DNA of 32,418 nucleotides from an uncultured Pseudomonadota bacterium (lineage in GTDB: Bacteria; Pseudomonadota; Alphaproteobacteria; UBA9219). Positions 20,908 through 29,068 of this stretch are shown in pieces (the first letter of the stretch is position 1; the number at the start of each line of letters is the position of its first letter). The notes beneath the pieces were generated by a model that saw only the letters and a list, made by a program, of their open reading frames with translations, was not told where the DNA came from and did no database searches. The DNA lies in contig CAIQVS010000078.1 of assembly GCA_903875345.1 (NCBI GenBank), positions 1 through 32,418 on the forward strand, read 5' to 3'. A program made the translations under genes and the position numbers.

Positions 20908-21363
20908 ATGTCTGTGCCAAGAAAATACATGGCGGCTTCGGTGCCGCGCTTTCTGCGTCAGTCGCGTCTGGCTTATCTGCCGTTGAAGTGCGTCATCGGC
21001 AGTCGCTTGATTCAGGGCGAAGGGTCGAATTTGTATTTCGACATCGTCATGCTGCCCGTTCCTGAATTCCAGCGCATGCGCGGCAATGTCGGGCTTCAGC
21101 ATGTGAACGCCCCCGCCTTGAAGGCCGGACCGACCTTCAATCCCGGCTTTGTGCTTACCGATGCCAAACAGGTCATCGTGCCCGATAACGAGCCCAATCC
21201 TGAAGCTTTTGCCAAAAACCATTTTCTGGTACTGTTCGGGCTTATCGCACCCGATGTTCCGACCGAAACGACGGAGCAGCCACAATTCGAAAGTTTTTCA
21301 GAAATCGCCAAAAAATGCACGGCGCAGATCGATAAATATAATACTAGACTAGCCAAGTCCTGA
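20908..21363 (+). CDS. hypothetical protein
   Basis: 151-aa ORF immediately upstream of the suf operon; no recognised domain. Confidence 0.55.
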   Translation: MSVPRKYMAASVPRFLRQSRLAYLPLKCVIGSRLIQGEGSNLYFDIVMLPVPEFQRMRGNVGLQHVNAPALKAGPTFNPGFVLTDAKQVIVPDNEPNPEAFAKNHFLVLFGLIAPDVPTETTEQPQFESFSEIAKKCTAQIDKYNTRLAKS

Positions 21364-21365
21364 TT
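21337..21365 (+). promoter_or_regulatory. suf promoter with IscR/Rrf2-type operator
   Basis: TATAAT at 21337-21342; ATACTAGACTAGCCAAGTCCTGATT at 21341-21365 closely fits the type-1 IscR layout ATA-N3-GACT-N5-AGTC-N3-TAT. Confidence 0.65.
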
Positions 21366-21379
21366 GCTACGCTGATCCC

Positions 21380-21847
21380 ATGATTAAAATTAGCCGTCTG
21401 ACTGACTATGCGATAGTCCTACTATCTCAAATGGTAGCGGGCAGCAAGAGCGTATTTTCCGCCTCGGATCTGGCGGAGCGCAGCAGCCTACCTCTGCCGA
21501 CAACGTCCAAGATACTGAAGAAACTGGCGAAAAACGGCATCGTCTCGGCGTTGCGCGGCGCGGCGGGCGGATACCGTCTGGAGCGACCCGCCGGAGCCAT
21601 TTCAATCGCCGCCATTATCGAGGCGATGGACGGCCCGATCTCCATCACCGACTGCGCCGATCCTGCGCCAAAGCGCGAGACCTGTCGCATCAAATCGATC
21701 TGTCCGATGAGCGCGAACTGGGGCAGCGTCAATCGCGTCGTGCGCGCCGCGCTCGAAGAAGTGTCCCTGACCGACATGCTTGCCGATTCGAGAGGCGATT
21801 TCGAAGACATTTTTGCGTCTGCGCCCGAACTGCGGAAGCGGGCATGA
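21380..21847 (+). CDS. Rrf2-family SUF regulator
   Basis: [18 protein letters not shown], winged HTH, three Cys [26 protein letters not shown]. Confidence 0.92.
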
Positions 21848-23305
21848 GCGTCCTGACCAAGACGCTGGCGAGTGAACTCGCCACCCAAACGTACAAGTAT
21901 GGCTTCGTCACCGCGATTGAATCCGAGACCGCGCCGAAGGGCTTGAACGAAGACACCGTCCGTTTCATCTCGGCGAAAAAGAGCGAACCGGAATGGTTGC
22001 TGGAAGGACGGCTGAAGGCCTTTCGCCACTGGCTGACGATGAAGGAGCCGGACTGGGCGAAGCTGAAACATCCGCCGATCGATTATCAGGATGCCTTTTA
22101 TTACGCAGCGCCGATGCAGAAGAAAAAACCCGGCAGCCTCGACGAGGTCGATCCCGAATTGCTGCGCGCTTATGAAAAGCTCGGCATTCCCTTGCGTGAA
22201 CAAGAGGTCTTGGCAGGGGTCAACCCGCGCGTCGCCGTGGACGCCGTGTTCGACAGCGTCTCGGTCGCCACGACTTATAAGAAAACGCTGGAGGATCAGG
22301 GCATTTTGTTTTGCCCGATTTCGGAAGCGGTGCAAAAATATCCGGAGCTGGTGAAAAAATATCTTGGCTCGGTCGTGCCGGTAACGGACAATTTTTTCGC
22401 CGCGCTCAATTCCGCCGTCTTCACCGACGGATCGTTCGTGTTCATTCCGAAAGGCGTCCGTTGCCCGATGGAGCTTTCGACCTATTTCCGCATCAATGCC
22501 GAAAACACCGGACAGTTCGAACGCACGCTCATCATCGCCGAGGAAGGGGCTTACGTCAGTTACCTCGAAGGCTGCACCGCGCCGAAGCGCGATGAGAATC
22601 AACTTCATGCGGCGGTGGTCGAGCTGATCGCGCATGACGATGCGCAGATCAAATATTCGACGGTGCAAAATTGGTATCCGGGCGACGAAAACGGCAAGGG
22701 CGGGATTTACAATTTTGTGACCAAGCGCGGCGCCTGTCGCGGCAAGCGTTCGAAAATCTCGTGGACTCAGGTCGAAACCGGATCGGCGATCACGTGGAAA
22801 TATCCGAGCTGCGTATTGCAGGGGCGATGATTCCGTCGGCGAGTTTTATTCGGTCGCCATCACCAGCCATCACCAGCAAGCCGACACCGGCACCAAGATG
22901 ATCCATATCGGCAAGAATACGCGCTCGACCATCGTCTCGAAGGGCATCAGCGCGGGCAAGGCGCAGAACACCTATCGCGGCTTGGTCAAAATCTTACGCA
23001 CCGCCAAGGGCGCGCGCAACCACACGCAATGCGACAGCCTGTTGATCGGCGACAGGTGCGGCGCGCATACGGTGCCGTACATCGAATCCCGCCAGCCTTC
23101 GGCGCGCGTCGAGCATGAAGCGACGACGTCCAAAATCAGCGACGACCAACTGTTCTATTGCCGCCAGCGCGGCCTGTCGCAGGAAGACGCAATGGCGCTG
23201 ATCGTCAACGGATTCTGCAAAGAAGTGCTGGCCGAACTGCCGATGGAATTTGCCGTCGAAGCGCAAAAGCTGGTGGGGGTTAGTCTGGAGGGAAGTGTGG
23301 GATGA
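21844..23305 (+). CDS. sufB: Fe-S cluster assembly protein SufB, frameshifted at GGGG near 22823
   Basis: ORFs 21844-22830 and 22898-23305 are halves of one SufB; removing one G restores [36 protein letters not shown]. Confidence 0.95.
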
Positions 23306-23402
23306 CTGCGCTGCCGGAGTTCAATGATTATTTGGTTTTCGCTGATGAAGCGGAGGGGTATTCGTGGCTATATTGCACCGATTTAGGTGGCCGAAAAAAC
23401 GG

Positions 23403-23579
23403 TCGTCATTCCCGCGAAAGCGGGAATCCAAGGACGCGCTTTCATCAGCGTCCTTTGCCGCGAAGCGGCAAAACGCCGCAAGAACTCATCGGTAGTTTTT
23501 ATGGCGTTTTGATGCTTCGCATCAAGCGCCCCCTGAAGAAAGCGGGGGCGCTGGATTCCCGCTTTCGCGGGAATGACGA
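23403..23579. repeat. palindromic intergenic element between sufB and sufC (177 bp)
   Basis: Perfect 28-bp TIR TCGTCATTCCCGCGAAAGCGGGAATCCA (23403-23430) and its complement (23552-23579); internal short palindromes. Confidence 0.9.
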
Positions 23580-23753
23580 ACCCCTTTTCGGGCTTTCAAA
23601 TCAACGCCGTAGAAAAAATGAAAGGACTCCGAGCTTCCCCAGAAGCCTGTCACCGACAGGGTTCCCTTGTCCTGAGTGCGCTGTAGCTCTTTTGTGCGAA
23701 AACAACAGCTTTGTTGTGCCTGTTAAACCTTAACCCATTGAGAAGTATCGAAG

Positions 23754-24506
23754 ATGCTTAAAATCACCAACCTTCACGCCGCGATTGACGGCAAGGATAT
23801 TCTCAAAGGCATCGACCTGACCATCGGCGCGGGCGAAGTGCATGCGATCATGGGTCCGAACGGGTCGGGCAAGAGCACGCTGTCCTATGTGCTGGCGGGG
23901 CGCGAGGGCTATGCCGTCACGCAAGGCTCGGTCACGTTCAAGGGGCAGGATTTGCTGAAGCTGGAGGCCGAGCAACGCGCCGCCGCCGGAATTTTTCTGG
24001 CCTTTCAATATCCGGTCGAGATTCCGGGCGTGACCAACATGAATTTCCTGAAAACCGCGCTCAACGCCCTTCGCAAGACGCGCGGCGAGCCGGATCTGGA
24101 CGCGATGCAGGTATTGAAAATCCTGCGCGAAAAAGCCAAGAAACTCGGCATGTCCGAGGAGATGCTGAAACGCGCCGTCAATGTCGGCTTTTCCGGCGGC
24201 GAGAAAAAACGCAACGACATTCTGCAAATGGCGGTGCTGGAGCCATGCTTCTGCATCCTTGACGAGACCGACAGCGGCCTCGATATCGACGCGCTGAAGA
24301 TCGTCGCCGACGGCGTCAACGCCCTGCGCGCGCCAGCCCGCTCGATGCTCATCATCACGCATTACCGGCGCTTGCTCGATTACATCAAACCCGATCGCGT
24401 GCATGTGCTGGCGCATGGAAAGATTCAGCGCTCCGGCGGCGCGGAACTGGCCGAGGAATTGGAAAAAACCGGCTACGCCGAATTCACTCCGCCGAAAGCC
24501 GCATGA
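23754..24506 (+). CDS. sufC: Fe-S cluster assembly ATPase SufC
   Basis: GPNGSGKSTLSYVLAGREGY, FSGGEKKRNDILQMAVLEPCFCILDETDSGLDIDALK. Confidence 0.97.
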   Translation: MLKITNLHAAIDGKDILKGIDLTIGAGEVHAIMGPNGSGKSTLSYVLAGREGYAVTQGSVTFKGQDLLKLEAEQRAAAGIFLAFQYPVEIPGVTNMNFLKTALNALRKTRGEPDLDAMQVLKILREKAKKLGMSEEMLKRAVNVGFSGGEKKRNDILQMAVLEPCFCILDETDSGLDIDALKIVADGVNALRAPARSMLIITHYRRLLDYIKPDRVHVLAHGKIQRSGGAELAEELEKTGYAEFTPPKAA

Positions 24507-24507
24507 G

Positions 24508-25191
24508 ATGAAACCGTCCGAACGCCATATCGTCTTTGACTGGAACAGCACGCTGCTGGACGACATCGCCTATCTGCACGGCGCGACCAACCATTTATTG
24601 ACGTTGGAGGAAGTCGAGCCGGTCAGTCTCGACTTTTTCCGCTCGCATTACGACGTGCCGTTCCGCCAGCTTTATTACAATCTGGGCTTGCCAGACGAGC
24701 GGGTGCAACGGCTGATCGACCGCGAAAACAGCACCTTTCATGATTACTATGAGCCGATGGCGCTGCGCGACGGTTTGCGCGACGGCGCGACCGAAATTCT
24801 GGATCACGCGCGAACGCATGGCGTCAAGACCTATATCCTCAGCAATCACATCGTCGAGCCGATCCGGACGCAGTTGCGGCGGCTCGAAATCGAGCATTTC
24901 TTCGCCGAAGTCCTTGCCTATGCCAACCGCACGACGCAATTCCGCGATATGACCAAGGGCGAACGCTTGCGCCGTTTCCGCGCCGAGCACGGCTGGAGCG
25001 ATCATAGCGCCATCATCGTCGGCGATTCCGTCGAGGAGATCGACATCGCGCGCGAGCAGGACATGGTCGCCGTCGCGATCACGGGTGGGTGCGTATCGGA
25101 GGAACGGTTGCGCGACGCTAGGCCGGATTACGTCATCCATTCGCTGCATGAGCTGCAACCCATTCTTGAAAAGGAAGGGTTCGTGTCATGA
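24508..25191 (+). CDS. HAD-superfamily hydrolase
   Basis: HIVFDWNSTLLDD (motif I), YILSNH (motif II), IIVGDSVEEIDIAREQD (motif IV); internal start at 24508. Confidence 0.88.
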   Translation: MKPSERHIVFDWNSTLLDDIAYLHGATNHLLTLEEVEPVSLDFFRSHYDVPFRQLYYNLGLPDERVQRLIDRENSTFHDYYEPMALRDGLRDGATEILDHARTHGVKTYILSNHIVEPIRTQLRRLEIEHFFAEVLAYANRTTQFRDMTKGERLRRFRAEHGWSDHSAIIVGDSVEEIDIAREQDMVAVAITGGCVSEERLRDARPDYVIHSLHELQPILEKEGFVS

Positions 25192-26306
25192 CGCTTGCCG
25201 CGACTCTCGAACGCAGCCGCCACGACCGCGAAGACTGGCGCTACACCGATCTTGAGAAAATTCTGGCATCGTCGTTTGCGCCAAAACCCGCAGCGAAGGT
25301 CGCGTCCGGCAACGCCTCGGCAAAGCAGGCTTTGGCGGATTTGAACCTGCGCCGCGACAATGTGTGCCGTCTGGTTTTTATCAACGGCGCTTGGCAGGCC
25401 GATTTGTCCGAGTTCGCCTCGCTGTCGCGGGATATTGTGAGCGACGATGCGCGGCAAGGCTTCCGCCTCGCTTTCGCCGATCAGGCCTGTCTTGTCACCA
25501 CGCCGATTGAGCTGGTGTTTATCAACGATGGTCGCGCCGCCGAAACATCAACCACATTGACGATCGACATCGGCGCGTCGGCGAGTCTGACGATCACCGA
25601 ACATCATGTCTCAACCGCCGCTGCCACGCAAATCCTCGACGCCGAAATTCGCCTCGGCCCGCAGGCCAAGCTGGAACACAACAAAATTCTTCATGCCAAT
25701 ACGCGCGCCGCTCATCTTGCGCGAACGGAGGCGCAGGTCGGCGCAGGCGCGTATTACCGCAATTTCGCGCTGATCAAAGACACGAAGCTGGTACGCAACG
25801 AAATCGAGGTGACGCTGCAGGATCGCCGCGCCCAATGCGCGTTGAACGGAGTCATGCTGCTGCGCGGCGAGGAGCATGCCGACACCTTTACGCGCATCAC
25901 GCATGCCGCGCCGCACGGCACCAGCCGCCAGTTTTACAAATCGGTCGTGGCCGGACGGGCGAAATGCGCGTTTCAGGGCAAGATCACCGTCGCCAAGAAT
26001 GCGCAAAAAACCGACGGGCGGCAAATGAGCCGCGCCTTGCTGCTGTCCGATCAGGCCGAGATGAACGCCAAGCCGGAGCTGGAAATTCACGCCGACGATG
26101 TGACCTGCAGCCACGGCAGCACGGTCGGCGATCTCGACACGGAGGCGTTGTTTTATCTGCGCACGCGCGGATTAAGTCTTGCCGAGGCGCGCGCGCTGTT
26201 GCTGCGTGGATTCGTCAATGAGGTTATCAATCAAACCGCCGAATCCCAAAACCACGACGGCGGCATCCGCGCCGTCGCCGAAAGGTGGCTCGATGAACAG
26301 CGCTGA
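25188..26306 (+). CDS. sufD: Fe-S cluster assembly protein SufD
   Basis: EDWRYTDLEKIL, QKTDGRQMSRALLLSDQAEMNAKPELEIHADDVTCSHGSTVGDLD. Confidence 0.95.
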   Translation: MTLAATLERSRHDREDWRYTDLEKILASSFAPKPAAKVASGNASAKQALADLNLRRDNVCRLVFINGAWQADLSEFASLSRDIVSDDARQGFRLAFADQACLVTTPIELVFINDGRAAETSTTLTIDIGASASLTITEHHVSTAAATQILDAEIRLGPQAKLEHNKILHANTRAAHLARTEAQVGAGAYYRNFALIKDTKLVRNEIEVTLQDRRAQCALNGVMLLRGEEHADTFTRITHAAPHGTSRQFYKSVVAGRAKCAFQGKITVAKNAQKTDGRQMSRALLLSDQAEMNAKPELEIHADDVTCSHGSTVGDLDTEALFYLRTRGLSLAEARALLLRGFVNEVINQTAESQNHDGGIRAVAERWLDEQR

Positions 26307-27585
26307 ATCCGCAAGCCCCGTTTGCGCCGCGCCGGGGGACGAATTGTTCGCCTGCGCCGCGCCGCGCATGTACGCCGTCGACCAATACCGCAAGGATTTC
26401 CCGATCCTGTCGGAGAGCATCCACGGACATCCTCTGGTCTATCTCGACAACGCCGCCAGCACGCAGAAACCGCGTATGGCGATCGAGGCGATGACGCGCT
26501 TTATGGAACATGATTACGCCAACATCCATCGCGGCGTGCATGAACTCAGCGTCCGCGCAACCGACAAGCACGAAGCAGCGCGTGAAACCGTGCGACGCTT
26601 CATCAACGCCGAACGCAGCGATGAAATCATCTTCGTCCGCAACGGCACCGAGGCGATCAACCTTGTCGCCGCCAGTTGGGGGCGCAAATTCCTGAAGCAA
26701 GGCGACGAAATCGTACTTACCATTCTTGAGCATCATTCCAACATCGTGCCGTGGCAAATGCTGCGCGATGAAATCGGCGTCGCTCTGCGCGTCGTGCCGA
26801 TGACGGCGGACGGGGATATACGGCTTGAGGATGTCAAGGCGCAATTATCGCCGCGCACGAAACTGGTCGCGGTTACGCATGTGTCCAACACGCTCGGAAC
26901 CGTTTTGCCGGTAGCCGAGATTGCGCAACTGGCGCATGGCGTCGGCGCGAAAGTTTTGTTCGACGGCTGTCAGGCCGTGGCGCGGATGCCGGTCGATGTG
27001 CGCGCGCTTGACGCGGATTTCTACGCTTTCTCCGGACACAAGCTTTACGGTCCGACCGGTATCGGAATTTTGTACGGCAAGCACGATCTATTGGAATCCA
27101 TGCCGCCTTATCAGGGCGGCGGCGGCATGATCGCCAGCGTCACGTTTGATGAAACAACATACCGCGAGCCGCCCTATCGCTTCGAAGCCGGAACGCCCGC
27201 GATCACCGAAGCGGTCGGGCTTGCCGCCGCGATTGACTATATTACGACGCTTGGATTGAACCGCATCGCGCGGCATGAAGATGAACTCATGAGCTACGCC
27301 GTCGAGCAACTGCGCCACGTCAACAGCCTGAAAATTCTCGGCAATCCAAAACATCGCGCCGGAGCCCTGTCGTTCACGATGCAGAACGCGCATCCGCACG
27401 ACATCGGCACGATCCTCGACCGCCACGGCGTGGCGATCCGCGCCGGGCATCATTGCGCCCAGCCGCTGATGGAGCATCTGGGGGTTCCGGCGACGGCGCG
27501 GGCTTCGTTCGGATTGTATAACAGCAAGGCCGACATCGACGCGCTGGTTAGTGCAGTTAAAGACGTGCGGAGGATTTTTGCATGA
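26293..27585 (+). CDS. sufS: cysteine desulfurase SufS
   Basis: YLDNAASTQKP, TILEHHSNIVPWQ, FSGHKLYGPTGIGILYGK, RAGHHCAQPLMEHLGV. Confidence 0.95.
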   Translation: MNSAESASPVCAAPGDELFACAAPRMYAVDQYRKDFPILSESIHGHPLVYLDNAASTQKPRMAIEAMTRFMEHDYANIHRGVHELSVRATDKHEAARETVRRFINAERSDEIIFVRNGTEAINLVAASWGRKFLKQGDEIVLTILEHHSNIVPWQMLRDEIGVALRVVPMTADGDIRLEDVKAQLSPRTKLVAVTHVSNTLGTVLPVAEIAQLAHGVGAKVLFDGCQAVARMPVDVRALDADFYAFSGHKLYGPTGIGILYGKHDLLESMPPYQGGGGMIASVTFDETTYREPPYRFEAGTPAITEAVGLAAAIDYITTLGLNRIARHEDELMSYAVEQLRHVNSLKILGNPKHRAGALSFTMQNAHPHDIGTILDRHGVAIRAGHHCAQPLMEHLGVPATARASFGLYNSKADIDALVSAVKDVRRIFA

Positions 27586-28058
27586 CCGACACGCTCGATA
27601 ACGACCTCCGCGACCTGTATCAGGATTTGATCCTCGATCACAGCAAGCATCCGCATAATTTCCATGTTGTGCCTGATGCCAATCGCGAAGCGCTCGGCCA
27701 CAATCCGCTCTGCGGCGACCGGTTGTCGCTGACATTAAAGGTCGATGCCAAGGGCGTCATTCAAGACATCGGCTTTCAGGGCAGCGGCTGCGCGATCTCG
27801 GTCGCCTCGGCTTCGATCATGACCGACATGCTGAAAGGCAAAACCGTCGATGAAGCCAACGCCCTGTTCCAGCACATCCATGCGGCGTGTACGGGAGCGC
27901 CCGCCGTTGTCGCGGTTGTGATTAGCGAAGACGACAACGACCGGCTTCAGGCTTTGGCGGGCGTACGGCATTATCCCATGCGGGTCAAATGCGCGACGTT
28001 GGCGTGGCATACCATGCAAGCAGCGCTGAAGGACGAGAAAAAGGTATCGACCGAATGA
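27582..28058 (+). CDS. sufU: SUF-system NifU/IscU-like scaffold or sulfur-transfer protein (SufU)
   Basis: LYQDLILDHSKHPHNF, NPLCGD, FQGSGCAISVASASIM, MRVKCATLAWHTM (three conserved Cys). Confidence 0.9.
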   Translation: MTDTLDNDLRDLYQDLILDHSKHPHNFHVVPDANREALGHNPLCGDRLSLTLKVDAKGVIQDIGFQGSGCAISVASASIMTDMLKGKTVDEANALFQHIHAACTGAPAVVAVVISEDDNDRLQALAGVRHYPMRVKCATLAWHTMQAALKDEKKVSTE

Positions 28059-28426
28059 ACGACACGCCTGAAATTATCGCTTTGCAGCCTGAAACCTTGA
28101 CGACAACCCTCCAAGCCATCGGCGAAAAGATTGTCGAGCGCCTGCGCACGGTCTTTGATCCGGAGATTCCGGTGAACGTTTATGACCTCGGCCTGATTTA
28201 CAAAATCGACATCAAGCCGCTTGAAGACGGCACGTTCGATGTCCATATCCAGATGACGCTGACGACTCCGAATTGCCCGATTGCCGAACAAATGCCGGCG
28301 ATGGTGCGCAACGCGGCCATCAATCTGGATGAAGTCCACGACGTCACGGTTGAGCTGGTCTGGGATCCGCCTTGGGACAAAACTCGCATGTCGGACGAGG
28401 CGAAGTTGCAGTTGAATATGTTTTAG
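28055..28426 (+). CDS. sufT: SufT / DUF59 (MIP18-like) Fe-S assembly factor
   Basis: VFDPEIPVNVYDLGLIYKIDI, MTLTTPNCPIAEQMP, VWDPPWDKTRMSDEAKLQL. Confidence 0.92.
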   Translation: MNDTPEIIALQPETLTTTLQAIGEKIVERLRTVFDPEIPVNVYDLGLIYKIDIKPLEDGTFDVHIQMTLTTPNCPIAEQMPAMVRNAAINLDEVHDVTVELVWDPPWDKTRMSDEAKLQLNMF

Positions 28427-28660: not shown

Positions 28661-29068
28661 ATGTCGCTTGATCACGTCTCAGGACCGGAAAACCACAATC
28701 CCGCACCGCCCTCCGGCGGCGCGATCCTGACGATCACGCCCGCCGCCGCCGAACGCATTAATGTCCTGCTGCGGAAAAAGATTCCGCAGCCGGAAGCGGT
28801 GCTGGTGTCGGTGACGAGCAAGGGATGCTCCGGCCACAGCTATGATTTGCAATATCTCGACCGCCTGTCCGACAAGCCGCCCTTCGCCGACGTGATCACC
28901 GAACATGGCGTGACGGTCGTCGTCGATCCGAAGGCGACGCTCTATATCGTCGGCTCGGTCATGGATTACAAGGAAAGCCCCACCCGCTCCGGCTTCGATT
29001 TCATCAATCCGAACGAAACCGGACGTTGCGGCTGCGGCGAGAGTTTCACGGTTGACCAGAAACCATGA
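28661..29068 (+). CDS. sufA: A-type Fe-S carrier (SufA/IscA/HesB)
   Basis: ITPAAAERINVLL, SVTSKGCSGHSYDLQYLD, GRCGCGESFTV. Confidence 0.92.
   Translation: MSLDHVSGPENHNPAPPSGGAILTITPAAAERINVLLRKKIPQPEAVLVSVTSKGCSGHSYDLQYLDRLSDKPPFADVITEHGVTVVVDPKATLYIVGSVMDYKESPTRSGFDFINPNETGRCGCGESFTVDQKP

Follow-up and report, generated by a model that had tools for sequence, protein, structure and literature searches.

The 25-bp inverted repeat in front of the suf operon of an uncultured alphaproteobacterium is probably (at a rough probability of 0.75) the operator of the adjacent TIGR02944/RisR-like regulator, which would repress its own promoter and with it the whole suf operon. We infer that this regulator binds an Fe-S cluster and acts as a repressor, so that its holo form would block the -35 element and the spacer and cluster loss would permit leaderless transcription. 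The mechanism of the system in the window (the whole stretch of 32,418 nucleotides that was analysed) is a known one, ordinary autorepression; what is added here is the correct regulator family, the conservation of a half-site, the geometry of the promoter and the near-uniqueness of the site. The elements around the operator, all on the + strand, are the following.

20908-21363, +: upstream hypothetical gene, whose last eight codons (YNTRLAKS) and stop codon lie within TATAAT plus operator
21337-21342, +: TATAAT, singled out by the sequence-only reading; it overlaps the AT-rich outer edge of the operator (sequence, promoter scan)
21341-21365, +: operator, a RisR/TIGR02944-type box, 25-bp inverted repeat ATACTAGACT-AGCCA-AGTCCTGATT, at a position conserved in relatives
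21345-21350, +: predicted -35 element TAGACT, within the left half-site of the operator, with a 17-bp spacer to the -10 element
21365-21373, +: predicted extended -10 element TGC-TACGCT, six bases before the ATG (12-locus alignment)
21380, +: putative transcription start, placed on the A of the ATG from the distance between -10 and ATG; the mRNA would be leaderless
21380-21847, +: Rrf2 regulator gene, TIGR02944 (SUF system Fe-S cluster assembly regulator), with Cys92/102/108

The operator 25-mer reads ATACTAGACTAGCCAAGTCCTGATT, with the half-sites GACT at 21347-21350 and AGTC at 21356-21359. The sequence-only reading had reported this palindrome at 21341-21365, the TATAAT at 21337-21342, the ATG at 21380 and the upstream ORF at 20908-21363; all of them proved exact, and the GACT-N5-AGTC half-sites are intact. 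It had also ascribed to the 25-mer the architecture of the E. coli type-1 IscR site, of which the consensus is ATASYYGACTRWWWYAGTCRRSTAT. The window 25-mer matches this consensus at 16/25 positions, compared with 24/25 and 22/25 for the best two sites of the E. coli iscR promoter in the MG1655 sequence. Thus, the core is type-1-like but the outer arms are not, and identity of the full 25-mer with an E. coli type-1 site is ruled out by the 16/25 match. The half-sites were also rejected as evidence on their own, since the 3.12-Mb assembly has 15 copies of GACT-N5-AGTC vs 26 of a reversed-pattern control, so that the motif is no rarer than expected by chance.

The evidence for an operator comes from conservation. 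We collected 103 regulator orthologs from relatives and named genomes, with duplicate contigs removed, and searched the 150 nt before each start codon. KACY-N5-RGTM was found there in 72/103 orthologs, compared with 1.9 on average and at most 7 in 300 dinucleotide-shuffle sets, a comparison that gauges conservation and gives no strict probability because the orthologs are not independent. The palindrome is therefore conserved at the orthologous place upstream of the regulator, and this position-specific conservation supports the earlier proposal that the suf regulator gene has a Rrf2-family operator at its promoter. The orthologs bearing the box are mostly alphaproteobacterial, and the rest are in records labelled gamma-/deltaproteobacteria, Myxococcales and Eisenbacteria. 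The consensus of 70 sites has the core G[GT]ACY-N5-RGT[AC]C with outer arms AAW / WWT. The 12 loci of the window's group have conserved a longer unit, AATCTRKACT-N5-RGTMCWGATT, at a constant distance to the ATG; the operator arms stand out in the footprint of these loci and most columns farther upstream carry about zero information. Because this upstream flank is near background, the conservation of the operator reflects constraint rather than recent ancestry. Several orthologs (L042, L050, L057, L091) carry two or three boxes before the regulator, and those of L042 overlap by two bases (TACTTAAAGGGTACTGATTTGGTC).

Moreover, the site is nearly alone. A position weight matrix (PWM) built from the 11 relatives, with the window excluded, ranked the window site 2nd of 64,784 window positions, and the same matrix extended by the downstream -10 ranked it 1st in the window. 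The window operator is more degenerate than any other in its group (PWM score 16.4 vs 25-41 in relatives), with a left outer arm ATACT where the 12-locus alignment has AATCT in relatives. Across 23 family genomes the group profile, which includes its own source sites and was scored on a limited number of candidates, matched in 11, and the best place was before the regulator gene in 10 of the 11; two further weak matches lie elsewhere in the family genomes (G007, G005). With regard to the own genome, a scan for the palindrome at the level of bare half-sites stays at chance, but the group profile found the window operator and no other match among 150 of 290 first-pass candidates scored. The refined pattern gave one match at 0 mismatches and one more at 1 mismatch on contig C49. 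A wider regulon was rejected on this near-single occurrence by refined pattern and profile, although further weak targets may exist, and the regulator is thus predicted to be a local autoregulator.

The regulator passed NCBIfam TIGR02944 (139.5 bits, curated cut-off 110.65) and failed the IscR model TIGR02010 (71.4 bits, cut-off 207.55) as well as the RirA and NsrR models. In a gap-free alignment through the recognition helix, it has P40/S43/K44 at the E. coli IscR positions S40/E43/Q44, and P40 and K44 are invariant across 16 relatives. The cysteines C92/C102/C108 are spaced C-X9-C-X5-C, and the first loop is shorter in E. coli IscR. This spacing had been presented as setting the protein apart from IscR with its C-X5-C-X5-C; the count is correct, but the loop between the first two cysteines varies from 6 to 14 residues in orthologs (mode 7), and C-X9-C was therefore rejected as a notable feature. 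The regulator's model score, cysteine spacing and recognition-helix residues together rule out membership in IscR. The label IscR-type is therefore to be abandoned, and the box and Cys spacing fit the RisR of Myxococcus xanthus better. Two more Rrf2 genes of equal length are present in the assembly (G000:C398:15738-16121, G000:C430:3174-3557), nearest to the RirA/NsrR models but below cut-off, and they may be two copies or a strain mixture because the bin is 8% contaminated.

Judged by its published features, RisR (MXAN_1152), a member of phylogenetic group IS6, is the closest known system. It has Cys92/102/108 and its holo form represses suf (PMC9973013); its DNase I footprint, T(T/G)GAC-N7-GTCC(T/A), overlaps -35/-10, and the E. 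coli IscR recognition residues S40/E43/Q44 are unconserved in it as well (PMC9973013). The window regulator is likewise an Rrf2 protein at a suf operon with the three cysteines in the same numbering (C-X9-C-X5-C), and TAGAC-N7-GTCCT lies over its predicted -35 with one departure, at the second base, the family consensus being GKAC-N7-GTMC. Myxococcota homologs of the window protein (L107, L114, L098) also pass TIGR02944. On the other hand, the window operon is alphaproteobacterial, its left arm is AGAC vs GGAC in RisR, and its promoter is predicted to be leaderless with a half-site serving as -35. E. coli IscR resembles the window regulator as an Fe-S Rrf2 autorepressor (as we suppose the latter to be) with three cysteines, and the GACT-N5-AGTC core is common to the window and one E. 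coli iscR-promoter site (GACTAAATCAGTC); it differs in having 23% identity, in the recognition residues and in the outer arms (ATASYY/RRSTAT vs AATCT/GATT of the window's group). At the suf promoter of E. coli the site is of type 2 (PMC12594620). From suf_reg_Xantho, the TIGR02944 protein that is likewise the first gene of a suf operon, the window regulator differs by sequence divergence alone; the literature searched held no experimental study of a Xanthomonas-type TIGR02944 member. Caulobacter IscR at the isc-suf operon is an alphaproteobacterial Rrf2 repressor with a binding peak over -35 (PMC11475020), similar to the site predicted in the window, but it has an A-rich type I motif and iscS next to iscR (PMC11475020), and no protein of the Caulobacter control genome was above the TIGR02944 cut-off.

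The 12 loci of the group point to a promoter built around the operator. A TA two bases past the right arm is present in 12/12 loci and begins -10 elements such as TATAAT, TATAAC, TATAGT, TAGAAT, TAAGAT, TAATTT and others, among them TACGCT of the window. TGn precedes the -10 in 7/12 loci, window included; the TATAAT loci do without it, so that the pattern fits the extended -10 promoter class. The TAGACT of the window, for which the relatives have TGGACT/TGTACT or TAGACT at the same spacing to a TATAAT-like -10, fits a -35 at 4/6. The -10 stands six bases from the ATG in 9/11 loci including the window, with five in L024 and seven in L013. In L017 the distance from operator to -10 is unchanged and the ATG lies farther downstream behind GGAGG, the arrangement to be expected of a -10 that is anchored to the operator rather than to the start codon. 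Since six bases separate -10 and ATG, transcription is predicted to start on or next to the ATG, and the promoter of the window's group would yield a leaderless suf mRNA. Such mRNAs are no rarity in Alphaproteobacteria (PMC7566282).

According to our model, as long as Fe-S clusters are abundant, the regulator dimer with its cluster would occupy 21341-21365, cover the -35 TAGACT and the spacer and keep RNA polymerase off the promoter with the extended -10 TGC-TACGCT. Under iron shortage or cluster damage, the regulator would lose its cluster and leave the operator. Transcription could then proceed from or beside the A of the regulator ATG as a leaderless suf mRNA, and this derepression would raise both the regulator and suf expression.

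A variant of this model, not exclusive of it, is that two promoters are active, a TATAAT promoter of recent origin besides the conserved leaderless one, with the operator over both, as a case of promoter turnover in the lineage. The window has the weakest downstream -10 of its group (TACGCT, 3/6 to consensus), the sole perfect TATAAT at the upstream edge (6/6) and a changed left outer arm, and in Zymomonas a single gene can have leadered as well as leaderless starts (PMC7566282). However, the upstream TATAAT has no -35 above 2/6 at a spacing of 16-18 bp, and we consider this variant rather unlikely.

Less probable still is the original proposal that TATAAT is the -10 of the promoter, with a start near 21349 inside the operator, an IscR-like block at a type-1 site and a leader of about 31 nt. 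The hexamer is perfect, and in other branches (for example Azospirillum L060, and also L049, L056, L057 and L091) a TTGAC...TAA promoter-like pair does stand immediately upstream of the operator. Against this stand the lack of a -35 and of an evident ribosome-binding site in the short leader, and the promoter scan, which called neither this TATAAT nor the downstream -10. Moreover, the place of the TATAAT is occupied in relatives by WWTAAT, the operator edge, and not by TATAAT (12-locus alignment), and the -10 conserved in the group is downstream of the operator. The perfect -10 at the operator edge thus exists as a sequence but not as a conserved element, and may at best be a second promoter specific to the window.

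The predicted promoter geometry differs between branches around a constant box. Other branches show an accumulation of TTGA[CA] at 33-36 nt upstream of the core, and in a sister family (L023, L029) the operator is flanked by TTGNAT and TACANA, which are 17 bp apart. We tentatively suggest, at somewhat under even odds, that TIGR02944 regulators of several phyla keep one autoregulatory box, GKACY-N5-RGTMC, around which promoters have been repeatedly rebuilt: TTGAC/TAAT-like elements before the box in many branches, the box in the spacer in another family of the same order, and the left half-site as -35 of a leaderless promoter in the window lineage, where the window may have been caught with an extra TATAAT at the upstream edge. 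The RisR-type operator, studied before in one myxobacterium, is hereby extended to many Alphaproteobacteria suf operons, uncultured and cultured, and beyond, and a concrete box is now usable for annotating suf regulation. With regard to Rrf2-DNA specificity, the comparison suggests that a GAC...GTC palindrome much like that of IscR can be combined with different recognition residues, PTxxK vs SxxEQ of IscR.

The regulator adjoins a suf operon, in which models for sufB, sufS, sufU, the SUF-associated protein and the sufA-type carrier were matched downstream.

21844-23305, +: sufB, in two frames (21844-22830 and 22898-23305), offset by one base within a G run near 22820-22826
23754-24506, +: sufC, assigned by eye from ABC-ATPase sequence and position
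25188-26306, +: sufD, assigned by eye and position
26371-27585, +: sufS (family model); the listed ORF starts at 26179 and the homologous part begins near 26371
27582-28058, +: sufU-type scaffold (family model)
27989-28426, +: SUF-associated protein TIGR02945, 138.8 bits, just under the cut-off of 143.4
28661-29068, +: sufA/iscA-type carrier (family model)

The true start of the SUF-associated protein is probably downstream of 27989. The split of sufB at 22820-22830 is most simply explained as an error of sequencing or assembly. An insertion of about 223 bp (23380-23602) between sufB and sufC has 51-nt inverted ends, 82% complementary and of the TTCCCGCGAAAGCGGGAATCC type; it is MITE- or REP-like, and its translation reads HSRESGNP/LDSRFRGND. 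The ORF at 24403-25191 between sufC and sufD looks by eye like a HAD-type phosphatase, an unusual member of a suf operon.

The degenerate operator, the weak -10, the two frames of sufB and the insertion might together indicate that operator and operon are decaying. We regard this as very unlikely, because the sole sufB and the sole close sufS of the assembly sit in this operon, the remaining suf genes are open and the sufB break amounts to one base in a G run. A chance palindrome with no regulatory role is highly improbable: the bare half-sites do occur at chance frequency in the genome, but the box is conserved at the orthologous place and the PWM and profile ranks favour the site upstream of the regulator.

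Finally, the upstream ORF extends with its 3' end into the operator, as had been stated and as the coordinates confirm, and the TGA stop codon lies inside the right arm. The further claim that the operon promoter is intragenic holds for the operator and the predicted -35, which are inside the upstream gene, but not for the predicted -10 and start, which are past the stop codon. We rejected the idea that this ORF is spurious, since it has homologs that make up a small real family: one of 72% identity on another contig of the same assembly (G000:C36:6983-7399) and weaker ones in five relatives. No Pfam or NCBIfam match was found for the small protein family (20908-21363, G000:C36:6983-7399). In the relatives examined, no ORF of the family is at the operator and the homologs are on other contigs; because the operator of the relatives is intergenic and the homologs lie elsewhere, the overlap appears peculiar to the window lineage. 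The genes of the upstream family are scattered among family members and do not stand beside suf elsewhere. The homolog on C36 ends ...KECTKADK, without the YNTRLAKS tail of the window copy.
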